From a bacterium (GTDB lineage: Bacteria; SM23-81; DAOVCL01): a stretch of DNA of 21,797 nucleotides. The translations under genes and the position numbers were made by a program. A model generated the notes under the pieces. The model did not search any database and had not been told where the DNA came from. It worked only from the letters and a program-made list of their open reading frames with translations. Of the stretch, positions 2,512 to 18,412 are shown piece by piece (position 1 is the first letter of the stretch; every line of letters begins with the position of its first letter). The stretch covers positions 1 to 21,797 of the forward strand of contig JAOZPP010000056.1 of assembly GCA_029932675.1 (NCBI GenBank). Reading direction: 5' to 3'.

Positions 2512-2910
2512 TCAATCTATGTGATAGCTGGTATGAACTGCCTCCCTTTGGACGAACCTTTCCAACCTCCTCTTCAGCCACCTTTTTATAGGCAATCTGG
2601 TATAGGGGATGAGGAGAATAAACCCGAGGAGGTCAGTGATCAAACCTGGGGTCAAAAGGAGAAGCCCGCCAGAGAGGACGAAGGCCCCATCGAGGAGCCC
2701 TTCTGTGGGGATCTCTCCCTAGGAGACCTGCCCCCTTATCAGTTTGATAACCTTAATCCCCTGGCTTTTGGCCAAGGCCGCTCCCAAAAGGGCGGTGCCA
2801 ATCACCAAAGCTATGGTTGGCCCTATCCCAATCCAGTGCCCAAGCTCCAGGAGGAGAAAGATCTCCAGAAGAGGAATGAGGGCAAAGGCCAAAAGGATCT
2901 TCCAGAACAT
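2512..2910 (-). pseudogene. fxsA: FxsA-family membrane protein, interrupted by in-frame TAG
   Basis: FxsA is a small cytoplasmic membrane protein; in E. coli its overproduction relieves phage T7 exclusion by F. Reading from ATG 2910 (2908-2910 on the complement) gives MFWKILLAFALIPLLEIF and the hydrophobic segment typical of the family. Codon 64 is TAG (2719-2721). In the same frame, directly after it, translation continues with GEIPTEGLLDG, a second hydrophobic segment GGLLLLTPGLITDLLGFILL, and a basic tail, ending at TGA 2512-2514. The joined product is 132 codons, the normal FxsA length, and the family's conserved GE(L/I)P...LLDG and LLLTPG motifs lie wholly after the TAG. Only one base needs to differ for a sense codon such as AAG. 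TAG is a normal stop in at least five neighbours, so this is a nonsense mutation, a sequence error, or local readthrough. The upstream ATG at 3015 would overlap the divergent amidase gene and is less likely. Confidence 0.8.
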
Positions 2911-2938
2911 AGGACTTAATATAGGGAGAAAATTAGGG

Positions 2939-3694
2939 ATGGCAAGGAAGAAATCAGGAAAGACGGATTTGAAAAGGCTATACCAGCTCAGTTCAGAGGA
3001 ATTGGGCGGACTCATAGAAGAGCTGAGAGCTAAAAGGATAGAGGAGAGGATAAAGAGGCTATGTTCTATGGCCCTGGGAACCCCCTACCAGCCTCAACCT
3101 TGGGAGGGGTCATCTACCTTTCACCTCCAGTCGATGGACTGTTTGACCTTCGTGGAGGAGATCATGGCCTTAGCCCTTGCCCCGGACAGAGGCGCTCTCC
3201 TTCCCACCCTGCGGCGACTGAGATTTAAAAACGGAGAGGTTGGCCCTTTCACCAGAAACCATTTCATCACCGCAGACTGGCTACCAAACAACTCCACGTT
3301 CTTAGAGGATATTACCCCCCTTTTGGGAGGTAGTGACACCCGGTTTATTGAGAAATATATCAATAAGAAAGAGTTTTTCAGGAAAAGGGGGCTAACTTGG
3401 GATGGTGAACCAACGACTTATATCAAATCAGCTTACCTTCCTCGGTCAATGCTTCCTTCCCTTCTCCCCTCCTTCCCCCCTCTCACAATCGTCGCCGTTG
3501 TCAAAGAGAGGCCAGATGTGGTGATCACCCATTTAGGATTTGGTCTCCATGATTCCCCCACTGTGGTTGGGTTTATCCATACCAGTCAAGAGATGAAAAT
3601 GGTTGCCAAAACAGACCTTTTGTATTACATTAAAAAGGATAGGGAAATCTTAGGGATTAAAGTCATCAGGTTGCAGGATAAATGGAGGAGATAG
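2939..3694 (+). CDS. DUF1460 N-acetylmuramoyl-L-alanine amidase-like protein
   Basis: Member of the DUF1460 family, papain-like (NlpC/P60-related) enzymes acting on cell-wall peptides or amide bonds. The catalytic signature is SMDCLTFVEE with Cys68; RNHFITADWLPNN (106-118) matches the family's conserved R-x-H...DW..N region; His198 in DVVITHLGF is the likely catalytic histidine. Length is 251 residues from ATG 2939. The open frame extends upstream to 2744, but that part lies over the fxsA-like gene and is not protein-like. GGAG at 2924-2927 is a plausible ribosome binding site. Most family members are exported, yet no signal peptide is visible here, which is odd: either the start is misjudged or the protein is cytoplasmic. 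It overlaps rarA by 13 bases, so the two are probably co-transcribed. Substrate is not predictable from sequence. Confidence 0.8.
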   Translation: MARKKSGKTDLKRLYQLSSEELGGLIEELRAKRIEERIKRLCSMALGTPYQPQPWEGSSTFHLQSMDCLTFVEEIMALALAPDRGALLPTLRRLRFKNGEVGPFTRNHFITADWLPNNSTFLEDITPLLGGSDTRFIEKYINKKEFFRKRGLTWDGEPTTYIKSAYLPRSMLPSLLPSFPPLTIVAVVKERPDVVITHLGFGLHDSPTVVGFIHTSQEMKMVAKTDLLYYIKKDREILGIKVIRLQDKWRR

Positions 3695-6703: not shown

Positions 6704-7456
6704 ATGTTAAGACAAATTCTGCTATTTATCCTGGCCTTTCTCTCCTTCATTGGGGTTCAATGCTCCAAGAATCCAGTGAAGGAGAGGTATTTGGAACCTC
6801 CTTTTAACTTAGTTGCCGACTCCGGGCTCGAGGGGAAGGTCTACCTTAGCTGGCAGGCTCCGAGATCAGGAGGGGAGACCGGATATAAATTATACAGGAG
6901 GAAATCAGGCCAAAGCTACTCCTCCATTGCCTCGCTCCAGGCTACCGAATATACCGATACAACTGTCTCCAATGACATCATCTACTATTATGTTGTCACT
7001 GCACTCTACCCCCAGGGAGAGAGTGAATACTCCAATCAGGATTGGGCTTTGCCAGGGAAGAACCAACCCCCCTGGATAGAGAAGGTTAAGTTAGACCCAG
7101 ATACGCTTAATTGGGCCGGGCCAGACACTGTTTCCCACATTGAAGTTTGGGTTGCTGACAATCAAGGTATAGCTGATGTAATTAGTGTCCAATTTAAAAG
7201 CATCAGACCCGATAGCAGCGAAAGGGGTCCTTTCCGCCTCTATGATGATGGGGATATAGATGGAGTTTCCGGAGACAAGATCAAAGACGATGGGGTCTTC
7301 TCCCTCAACATAACCATAGGTTCACCAGGTAACCCTGAGACGCTGGTGGGAGAGTATAGGTTCATCTTTACCGCTTCTGACCATTACGAAACCAGCCTTC
7401 CGGACACCCAATATTTCTACATTGTAAAAGAGGACTCCACAGGGGGGAGTTTATGA
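6704..7456 (+). CDS. Probable lipoprotein with fibronectin type III domain
   Basis: Exported, membrane-anchored protein of unknown role. The N-terminus MLRQILLFILAFLSFIGVQC is a lipoprotein-type signal with candidate lipidated Cys20, followed by SKNP. The lipobox is poor (Gln just before Cys), so anchoring is inferred. Residues about 33-115 form an FnIII domain (KVYLSWQAP, GYKLYRRKSG, YYYVVTAL). Residues about 120-245 are a second beta domain with an acidic loop LYDDGDIDGVSGDKIKDDG, resembling calcium-binding loops or the Ig-like domains of secreted proteins in FCB-type bacteria. GGGGAGGTAGGAG lies just upstream of ATG 6704. Its TGA overlaps the next ATG by four bases, so it is likely co-translated with the Asp-box protein. 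Confidence 0.75.
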   Translation: MLRQILLFILAFLSFIGVQCSKNPVKERYLEPPFNLVADSGLEGKVYLSWQAPRSGGETGYKLYRRKSGQSYSSIASLQATEYTDTTVSNDIIYYYVVTALYPQGESEYSNQDWALPGKNQPPWIEKVKLDPDTLNWAGPDTVSHIEVWVADNQGIADVISVQFKSIRPDSSERGPFRLYDDGDIDGVSGDKIKDDGVFSLNITIGSPGNPETLVGEYRFIFTASDHYETSLPDTQYFYIVKEDSTGGSL

Positions 7457-9375
7457 AAAAGTTTAGGATTTGGTTCCTTACCCTCAGCGTTTTGCTGGGT
7501 GCCTCCTATTTGGCTGCCCAAATTCCCAAGGATTTCGCCACCCAGGCCTTGGGAAGAATCTCCGGAAATGGCATCGGGGATATCAGATGGGATGGTGCAC
7601 ACCTCTGGGTGGGCACATCAAGCGGAATAAACAAATTAGTCGGTGGGCCATTCAGCCCAGAGGGGTGGATGGTTTATACGACCAAGGACGGGTTGGCCCG
7701 GAACAACATCTTCGCCCTGATGCCTGTAACCGTTGATGTTATCTGGACAGCCACGGGATATGCCGAACAAGTGGGAGGGGACTACTTTCCTGCCGGGGCA
7801 GGGATTAGTTTGACCAAAGAGGGGGGGGAGAGTTGGAAATCATTTTCTACCCAATACATCTTTCGCAACTACTACTTTCAACCCGGATTTGAGAGGGGTG
7901 ACGGCTTCGCTTCCGTCTTTAAGGTTGACACCTCCGACCTCCCTATCTCCATCGATACGGTAAGGGTCTACATAGGCAAAGAGGGGTCCGCTCCCTTCAC
8001 CCTTCAGATCTGGCAGGACAATGGAGCTGAGAGCCCCGGCGATACCATCCGCACTAAGACCTGTGAGATAGAGGGCGATTCGACCAAGTTTACTGACATC
8101 GACCTCACCTCCGATGGCATTGAGGTTGAAAGCCCATCTTTTAGAATTGGCCTCAAATTCCGCACCCAGACCTCCCTCTCCATTGCCCGGGATGCCCGGG
8201 GGATAGCCAAGAAGAGAAACCTCATCTATCGGGATACCCAGGGAAGGTGGTGGTTTTCAGAGGATATTGGCCTGGGAGGTGATTGGATCCTGCGGGCCAA
8301 GGTCAGGACGGCACGGGATAGCACGGGCTTCTGGCTGAAGAATGATAGCTTCCAGTTTGGGGAGAAGATCATCGATGTGGGTCGCCCTATTTATGACATT
8401 GCCATCCAAGATACCACCGTCTGGGTTGCTGCCTTCTACGGGGGTCTGGCCAAGAGCATGGATTGGGGGCAGACCTGGGATAAGGTCGTGCCAGAGGACA
8501 AACCATTTGATCCCACCTATAGCGACTACAACCAGCGGGCCTTCTCAGTGGTCACCTCTGGCGACACTATATGGGTAGGAACTGCAGATGGGATCAACCG
8601 TTCGGCAGATGGGGGAAAGACCTGGGTAAACTACAATTCTGTAGATACCCGTATCCCAGGCAACTTCGTGGTCAGCTTGGGGGTGCAAAAATATGGTGGA
8701 AAGACGGTTATTTGGGCGGGAACAAGGCCCACGGACAAGGACAACGGCTTCACGGGCATTGTGAAGACGGAGGATGGGGGGAATACCTGGCGGAACTACA
8801 TGGAGGGGTATACAGCCTGGAACTTCAGCTTTCAAGACTCAGTGGTCTGGGCAGCCACCGATCAGGGACTGATCAGGTCAAAGGATGGGGGAAGACATTG
8901 GGATTTCTTCGACATCATCGACGATTCTACCAATGATCGGGTCTATATCGACGAGGTTATTTCAGTAAAGGTCACGGAATTACAGGATACCATAGTCTGG
9001 GTGGGAACCTATCAGGGACTGGCTTACTCTAAGGACTGTGGAAAGACATGGCGGATAGTTAAATCCTATATGCCCATTGGAGCCGACAAGGCTCCCCTAA
9101 CCTATGCTTTTCCCAACCCCTTCTCCCCCTCCCGCTCGGGGGCGATAAGGATTATGTATCACACGGCTAAAGCCGGCCGCACAGTGGTGAAGATCTACGA
9201 TCTGGCCCTTGATCTGGTAAAGACGTTGAGCATAGAGGACTTTGCCGGCGACCGAGGAATTAACTGGGATGGGAGGAATGGAAAGGGACACAGGGTAGCC
9301 AATGGAGCCTATCTCTATAAGGTGGAAGGGGCTGACGGTCGGGTGGCCTGGGGCAAGATTGTCGTTATGGATTAA
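7453..9375 (+). CDS. Secreted Asp-box/beta-propeller protein with FlgD-like C-terminal domain
   Basis: Exported protein of 640 residues. It has a signal peptide (1 to about 22, ending LAAQ) and an N-terminal propeller blade (IRWDGAHLWVGTSSGINKL). Six Asp-box motifs of the S-x-D-x-G-x-T-W type lie at about 121-128, 335-342, 384-391, 439-446, 476-483 and 526-533. Between the first and second is a beta-sandwich-like insertion (about 160-285). The last 90 residues (YAFPNPFSP, TVVKIYDLALDLV, WDGRNGKG, GAYLYKVEG) are the FlgD Ig-like domain found at the end of many secreted proteins in candidate phyla, similar in position to type IX sorting domains. Asp-boxes are structural in sialidase and sortilin propellers; no sialidase catalytic set was recognised, so no enzyme activity is claimed. 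Next gene starts ten bases later. Confidence 0.82.
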   Translation: MKKFRIWFLTLSVLLGASYLAAQIPKDFATQALGRISGNGIGDIRWDGAHLWVGTSSGINKLVGGPFSPEGWMVYTTKDGLARNNIFALMPVTVDVIWTATGYAEQVGGDYFPAGAGISLTKEGGESWKSFSTQYIFRNYYFQPGFERGDGFASVFKVDTSDLPISIDTVRVYIGKEGSAPFTLQIWQDNGAESPGDTIRTKTCEIEGDSTKFTDIDLTSDGIEVESPSFRIGLKFRTQTSLSIARDARGIAKKRNLIYRDTQGRWWFSEDIGLGGDWILRAKVRTARDSTGFWLKNDSFQFGEKIIDVGRPIYDIAIQDTTVWVAAFYGGLAKSMDWGQTWDKVVPEDKPFDPTYSDYNQRAFSVVTSGDTIWVGTADGINRSADGGKTWVNYNSVDTRIPGNFVVSLGVQKYGGKTVIWAGTRPTDKDNGFTGIVKTEDGGNTWRNYMEGYTAWNFSFQDSVVWAATDQGLIRSKDGGRHWDFFDIIDDSTNDRVYIDEVISVKVTELQDTIVWVGTYQGLAYSKDCGKTWRIVKSYMPIGADKAPLTYAFPNPFSPSRSGAIRIMYHTAKAGRTVVKIYDLALDLVKTLSIEDFAGDRGINWDGRNGKGHRVANGAYLYKVEGADGRVAWGKIVVMD

Positions 9376-9385
9376 AGGGGGGAAA

Positions 9386-10309
9386 GTGCATACCAGAAAT
9401 ACACCTATCTTATTTCTTCTTTTCTTCTTCATCCAGCCCTGCCTGATGGCTGCTGAGGAAGGGGGATATGCAGGGGCCTTCTTAAGGATGGGGGTAGGGG
9501 CGAAGGCTCTGGGGATGGGGGAAGCCTTTGTCTCAGTGGCTGATGATGCCTCTGCCGTCCACTACAACCCGGCAGCTCTCTCCTTCGTTGGGAAGAGGGT
9601 ATTCACTTCAGCCTATCGGGCGCTCTCCTTGGGAAGGAGGTTTAGTTACTTAGGATATGCTCAACCCTTGCGGCATGAGGCTGGGGTGGGGATAGGGTGG
9701 ATCAGCGCCGGTTTGGATGATATCGATGGGCGAGATGAAGATGGGCAGCCAACTAGGAAATTCTCTGACAGCGAGAACGCCATCACCTTCTGTTTCTCCA
9801 AGCGAACCATCCCCCACCTGGCCTTTGGACTGGCCATCCGGTATTTCCAACAGAAGTTGGCTGGGGTAAGTACCAATACTGTAGGGTTGGGTTTTGGGGG
9901 AATCTATAAGAAGGAGAAGAAATTCTCCGTAGGTTTCTCCGTGCAGAACTTGAGGTCCAAATATAGTTGGGATACCAAGGAGCTCTGGGAAAGAGGAACT
10001 ACCACTACAGATACGATACCAACAAACTACAGGATAGGCTTCTCCTATTGGCTCCTCAACGGAAGGCTACTCACTGCCTTTGATCTGGAGAAGAACCTTA
10101 AACAAACGATGAAGTATCACTTCGGGGTAGATTTCAAAATCTATAAGGACTTCAACTTGAGGTTAGGATATAATAACGACCGCTTTGCCTTTGGGGGAGG
10201 ATTGTCCCAGAGGTATAAGGATTTCGAGTTCACCTTCAATTATGCTTACCTGCCAGAAAAGGCAGCCGTAGCACCAGCCAAAATCTATTCCTTAGAGGTT
10301 AGATTCTGA
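9386..10309 (+). CDS. PorV/PorQ-like outer-membrane barrel protein
   Basis: Member of the PorV/UPF0164-like family of 14-strand FadL-type barrels; PorV shuttles cargo of the type IX secretion system in Bacteroidota. After the signal peptide (about 1-23, hydrophobic core ILFLLFFFI, ending LMAA) comes the family hallmark: GAFLRMGVGAKALGMGEAF, then VSVADDASAVHYNPAALSF. The rest is alternating beta strands ending in a phenylalanine (EVRF), as usual for barrel proteins. GTG 9386, just after an AGGGGGG tract, gives a clean signal peptide and avoids overlap with the preceding gene; the open frame upstream to 9302 would spoil the signal. It directly follows the FlgD-domain protein, suggesting that this barrel helps export or anchor it; that is inference. 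Confidence 0.82.
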   Translation: MHTRNTPILFLLFFFIQPCLMAAEEGGYAGAFLRMGVGAKALGMGEAFVSVADDASAVHYNPAALSFVGKRVFTSAYRALSLGRRFSYLGYAQPLRHEAGVGIGWISAGLDDIDGRDEDGQPTRKFSDSENAITFCFSKRTIPHLAFGLAIRYFQQKLAGVSTNTVGLGFGGIYKKEKKFSVGFSVQNLRSKYSWDTKELWERGTTTTDTIPTNYRIGFSYWLLNGRLLTAFDLEKNLKQTMKYHFGVDFKIYKDFNLRLGYNNDRFAFGGGLSQRYKDFEFTFNYAYLPEKAAVAPAKIYSLEVRF

Positions 10310-17779: not shown

Positions 17780-18412
17780 TTACGAGGGGCACTTCTTGAG
17801 GAGGACAATCACTTGGGAATGGAACAAGGGTATAGGTCTTTTAGCCGCTAAAGCCCTTAGCCCTTGGCTGCCCACCTCCTGGAGGAAATCAAGGGGGGAG
17901 GTCATCCTAATGTGGCGCCGCAGTCCTCTAAGCTTGCGGGCCCAAAAGTGGACCGGTGTGAAGCAGTAGAAGGAGAGGAGAACCCATCTCCTCGCCACCC
18001 GAGAGAGCTCTGAGAGGGCTTGACTTCTTCCCTCGGGTCCCATATGTTGAAATATCCGCATACTGAAGGTGAGGTCTATGGACCCCGGCTTGAAGGGTAG
18101 GGCCTTGATGTCGGCGACAAGGAAACCGCCTTTTTTTTCCCCTGCCCTCTCCCGGGCCCTTCTCACCTCCCTCAAGGAGAGATCGGCGGAGACCACATAA
18201 TCACCGTATTCCCGAAGGATGGGGGTGAACCTGCCATAGCCGGATGGAAGATCTAAGATGAGCCTCGACTTTAGGCCACTGAGCAACTTCTTGACTATTC
18301 CCTTCTCCCTGCGATCGATCAGCCTCTGGTCGAGGTGTGAATAACGGGTGCGTTCGTATTCGGTCTCCCCTACCTTATCCCCAAAGGTCTGTAGATGTTC
18401 CTGTCCCTCCAT
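17780..18412 (-). CDS. Class I SAM-dependent methyltransferase
   Basis: Rossmann-fold methyltransferase of the Methyltransf_11/25 type. Motif I is LILDLPSGYGRF (D54 to G60), the acidic end of strand 2 is VVSADLS, motif II region is VADIKALPFKPGSIDLTFSM (Asp pairs with adenine), and FQHMGPEGRSQALSELSRVA is the usual post-motif helix. 210 residues. Substrate unknown. Its ATG 18412 lies 43 bases inside the end of the WaaP-like kinase gene, in another frame, so the two are co-translated; a role in lipid or LPS modification is suggested by this pairing only. Confidence 0.83.
   Translation of the reverse strand: MEGQEHLQTFGDKVGETEYERTRYSHLDQRLIDRREKGIVKKLLSGLKSRLILDLPSGYGRFTPILREYGDYVVSADLSLREVRRARERAGEKKGGFLVADIKALPFKPGSIDLTFSMRIFQHMGPEGRSQALSELSRVARRWVLLSFYCFTPVHFWARKLRGLRRHIRMTSPLDFLQEVGSQGLRALAAKRPIPLFHSQVIVLLKKCPS

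Follow-up and report, generated by a model that had tools for sequence, protein, structure and literature searches.

The only fxsA gene of the bacterial genome examined here is interrupted in frame by a TAG at codon 64, and the explanation with the best support, which we consider probable, is that a dispensable membrane-protein gene present in single copy has recently suffered a nonsense mutation. The gene lies in the window (the whole stretch analysed, 21,797 nucleotides), which is one complete contig carrying mostly housekeeping genes (Table 1). Its N-terminal part reads MFWKILLAF...KLIRGQVS up to the TAG, and the same frame then continues as GEIPTEGLLDGAFVLSGGLLLLTPG...HTSYHID to the terminal TGA with no base gained or lost, giving the overall translation MFWKILL...GQVS*GEIPTEGLLDGAF...YHID*. 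Scored across the stop, with one internal TAG, the gene matches the FxsA family (PF04186) at 119.8 bits (1.4e-34) against a curated cut-off of 25.2, and the halves scored separately reach 52.4 bits (N-terminal) and 58.0 bits (C-terminal). The family's conserved block order is kept over about 132 residues. Because both halves and the whole match, we take this to be a genuine fxsA broken at a single codon; it fits the family profile but is without one uninterrupted reading frame. The likeness of the halves to FxsA is not due to chance, as the congener has the same 132 residues in one unbroken frame, 82% identical. An earlier reading of the DNA letters (the sequence-only reading) had described an fxsA split by an in-frame TAG with the frame continuing without an indel, and both the translation and the profile matches bear this out. 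E. coli FxsA, when overproduced, relieves F-plasmid exclusion of phage T7; a search by sequence found no solved structure of the family, and a literature search in a limited collection of papers found no study of its mechanism.

Table 1. Features of the window and of the stretches compared with it (positions without a stretch name are those of the window).
Feature	Position	Strand	Basis or remark
fxsA, ATG at 2910 to TGA at 2512	2512..2910	-	
N-terminal half of fxsA (codons 1-63), with about two hydrophobic helices	2722..2910	-	PF04186 profile 1-55, E 6.5e-14
TAG codon 64, in frame; CAG (Gln) in the only congener compared	2719..2721	-	translation and congener alignment
C-terminal half of fxsA (codons 65-132 and TGA), intact, lacking an in-frame ATG or GTG	2512..2718	-	PF04186 profile 59-109, E 1.2e-15
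Weak sigma-70-like match ahead of the fxsA start codon	2918..2945	-	consensus match only; chance expectation about 0.6
AmiA-like amidase gene	2910-3694		
Amidase remnants, congener	L065:9440-10096		
640-aa protein and PorP/SprF-like membrane protein	7453-10309		
Window ORFs terminated by TAG	ends at 3694, 5049, 6542, 12448, 14638		
Further window genes terminated by TAG	ends at 18370, 19679	-	
DinG-type helicase, rarA/mgsA, ruvX, mltG/yceG, SSF and MATE transporters, cvpA, pyruvate kinase			genes of the window
FlgD-like/type IX sorting-tail fragment, congener	L065:3517-3693	-	
Best TAG-separated ORF pair, source genome	L081:11586-12521	-	case L081:12114
tRNA-Sec (anticodon TCA), source genome	L063 (G000:C9:5463-5552)		

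The source genome (3.03 Mb, 97% complete) yields a single FxsA match in a profile search; the intact second copy that the sequence-only reading had named as pointing to a plain decayed duplicate is absent. The same reading had proposed looking at codon 64 in close relatives, and in the congener (G001, contig DAOVCL010000046.1, stretch L065), the single additional genome from this genus in the comparison, fxsA carries no stop and codon 64 is CAG (Gln), in the context ...DQLSQGNIPTEG..., so that the two species differ at this codon by one C/T transition. Full-length fxsA also occurs in two genomes from the same phylum, and among 386 genomes searched an FxsA match was found in 74, with an internal stop in one of these, the window gene. 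With the match absent from the other 312, fxsA is dispensable at large scale, most of the sampled relatives being without the gene. Residue 64 is Q, E, A, G or I among FxsA relatives and is not conserved in the family, which argues that the position needs nothing special; the CAG to TAG direction hangs on one congener, since more distant relatives carry other residues there. On this comparison the ancestral codon was presumably CAG, and we infer that the TAG base is real in the organism and not an assembly error.

Nei-Gojobori counts between the two species give a dN/dS of about 0.23 (0.145/0.62) for codons 1-63 and about 0.10 (0.082/0.82) for codons 65-132, and at sites where three relatives agree the source genome carries one change of its own in the C-terminal half and five in the N-terminal half. 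These counts indicate that, before the break, purifying selection acted on the C-terminal half, which has not decayed since. As that half was constrained over nearly all of the divergence and is undecayed, the stop is either very young or not real, that is, an assembly base error; an undecayed C-terminal half is to be expected after a very recent mutation, yet also from an error or from functional readthrough. In the course of events that we favour, the chromosomal, single-copy fxsA would very recently have gained one nonsense change in the source lineage, CAG (Gln64) to TAG. RF1 would then terminate at codon 64 to give a product of 63 residues that retains just the first two hydrophobic segments, and the second half of the gene would go untranslated. 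Such a truncated, two-helix FxsA has presumably lost its function, which would make fxsA a young pseudogene, its membrane protein being dispensable.

The alternatives in which the TAG is decoded can be weighed against the translation apparatus of the source genome. Some general or partial reassignment of TAG, for which there is the one in-frame TAG, is scarcely credible: RF1 is intact (351 of 361 model positions, 515 bits), and of 254 long-ORF stops counted in 0.69 Mb of stretches sampled from the genome, 79 (31%) are TAG, 89 TAA and 86 TGA. Several of the TAG ends lie in a ribosomal-protein region (stretch L088), at what look like the expected ends of rpsH, rplE and rpsM. The five neighbouring genes that the sequence-only reading had listed as ending normally in TAG proved right when the ORF ends were checked, and two minus-strand genes bring the number in the window to at least seven; its exclusion of general reassignment is thus supported by RF1 and by the ordinary TAG termination of other genes. 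The genome search for a suppressor tRNA that it had called for found no CUA anticodon among the 41 tRNA matches typed across the source genome, and a truncated tRNA match at the end of contig C6 has the anticodon CTT. Pyrrolysine decoding of the fxsA TAG was rejected, with neither a pylS above cut-off nor a CUA tRNA present: the PylS N-terminal family has no match in the source genome, and the C-terminal family has sub-cut-off matches only, similar to those in 12 control genomes without an above-cut-off PylS. Functional readthrough or suppression yielding full-length FxsA would suit the frame that stays open and intact beyond the TAG and the low dN/dS of the C-terminal half, but is quite unlikely given RF1, the tRNA and PylS results, and a codon that reads CAG in the congener and differs from member to member of the family. 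The stop of a readthrough gene should be conserved in relatives, and this one is absent from the congener and from all other genomes, with both sides of it constrained. RNA folding downstream of the TAG is little above chance (z -1.57, 13 of 200 shuffles folding equally well), and an Rfam search of the window gave no match. A codon-statistics scan of the 0.69 Mb, which would have narrowly missed fxsA itself, found no second convincing TAG-split gene; it gave 37 same-frame ORF pairs (separated by 14 TGA, 12 TAG and 11 TAA), and the pairs that were inspected looked to be mostly neighbouring genes. The best TAG pair, in stretch L081, was rejected as a readthrough gene: the first ORF, of 135 residues and signal-like at its N-terminus, precedes an unrelated ankyrin-repeat ORF whose ATG is itself preceded, at about 12 bases, by a purine-rich AAAGGAG. 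Strong homologues cover the ankyrin side alone, none spanning the stop; these are probably two coupled genes. The genome does have a tRNA-Sec, which serves TGA and not TAG, and its TGA-split frames may therefore be selenoprotein genes. Very unlikely, too, is a TAG fixed in the species and usefully read through by an ordinary tRNA (e.g. tRNA-Gln CUG) to yield a short FxsA of two helices alongside the full one of four. If readthrough were true, fxsA would be an unusual instance of a membrane protein regulated through TAG where RF1 is present and a suppressor tRNA absent.

More improbable still is a split gene whose two two-helix half-proteins are translated separately and assemble in the membrane. 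The stop sits between what read as two hydrophobic hairpins, where a split could be tolerable, but no in-frame ATG or GTG follows it; the first TTG is codon 86, past the conserved GEIPTEGLLDG, and the one other candidate, an ATC at codon 67, would be a very rare start. The intact downstream frame is the sole positive support for readthrough, separate half-proteins and reassignment. Of the four options that the sequence-only reading had left, a fresh nonsense mutation and a sequence error stand, and readthrough and half-proteins fall away, the former for want of a suppressor tRNA or pyrrolysine system and the latter for want of a usable start. A wrong base in the assembly or consensus would give a picture identical to that of a nonsense mutation. 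That the assembly of this uncultured genome carries an erroneous or minority-variant base, the organism's own fxsA being intact, is unlikely on balance, though a possibility to be reckoned with: it would fit one substitution in a single-copy gene with an undecayed downstream half, in a fragmented assembly of 116 contigs, one of which makes up the entire window. The other examined genes of the contig, however, are not visibly broken, a small sample of homologues compared between the congener and the source genome contained no further in-frame stop in the presumed true frame of a source-genome gene, and a C-to-T transition is the most ordinary type of real mutation. A recent nonsense mutation is the reading that we prefer; whether a mutation recently inactivated the gene or the base is wrong, nothing points to recoding, and the case is an ordinary one.

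Next to fxsA and divergent from it lies an AmiA-like amidase gene, intact in the window; in the congener only fragments of it are left (residues 75-97, containing an in-frame stop, and residues 259-316), and the flanking rarA there is 84% identical; this decay indicates that gene loss by decay is ordinary at the fxsA locus. The same congener stretch contains a lone FlgD-like/type IX sorting-tail fragment, VRLEVYTIFG*KVASLVDG, with an in-frame TAG at a glutamine kept by source-genome homologues (L066, L067); it looks like a gene remnant, as the upstream part is missing. In the window itself, a protein of 640 aa carries BNR/Sortilin-like repeats and, at its C-terminus, a FlgD-like domain; after it comes a PorP/SprF-like membrane protein, and the pair resembles a type IX secretion cargo and its outer-membrane partner. 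For annotation, fxsA calls for a pseudogene label or a check of its base, and it is unfit as evidence of recoding in this lineage; outside annotation the case matters little.

Compared with other members of the FxsA family, the window gene is alike in being single copy, in its length and block order and in the match of both halves, and differs by the TAG at codon 64, which is absent from the 73 remaining genomes that have an FxsA match. It resembles pyrrolysine and other UAG-readthrough genes in having an in-frame TAG beyond which a conserved frame continues, but differs from them in the lack of pylS and of a CUA tRNA, in the variable position at which the stop falls and in the absence of that stop from the congener. 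Young nonsense pseudogenes are known in bacterial genomes, and the window fxsA is like the Salmonella set (PMC2916853) in consisting of one substitution in an otherwise intact frame of a dispensable gene that is intact in a sister species; a sense codon stands at the same site in the relative, and there is no second intact copy. Nothing tested sets the window fxsA apart from such pseudogenes.
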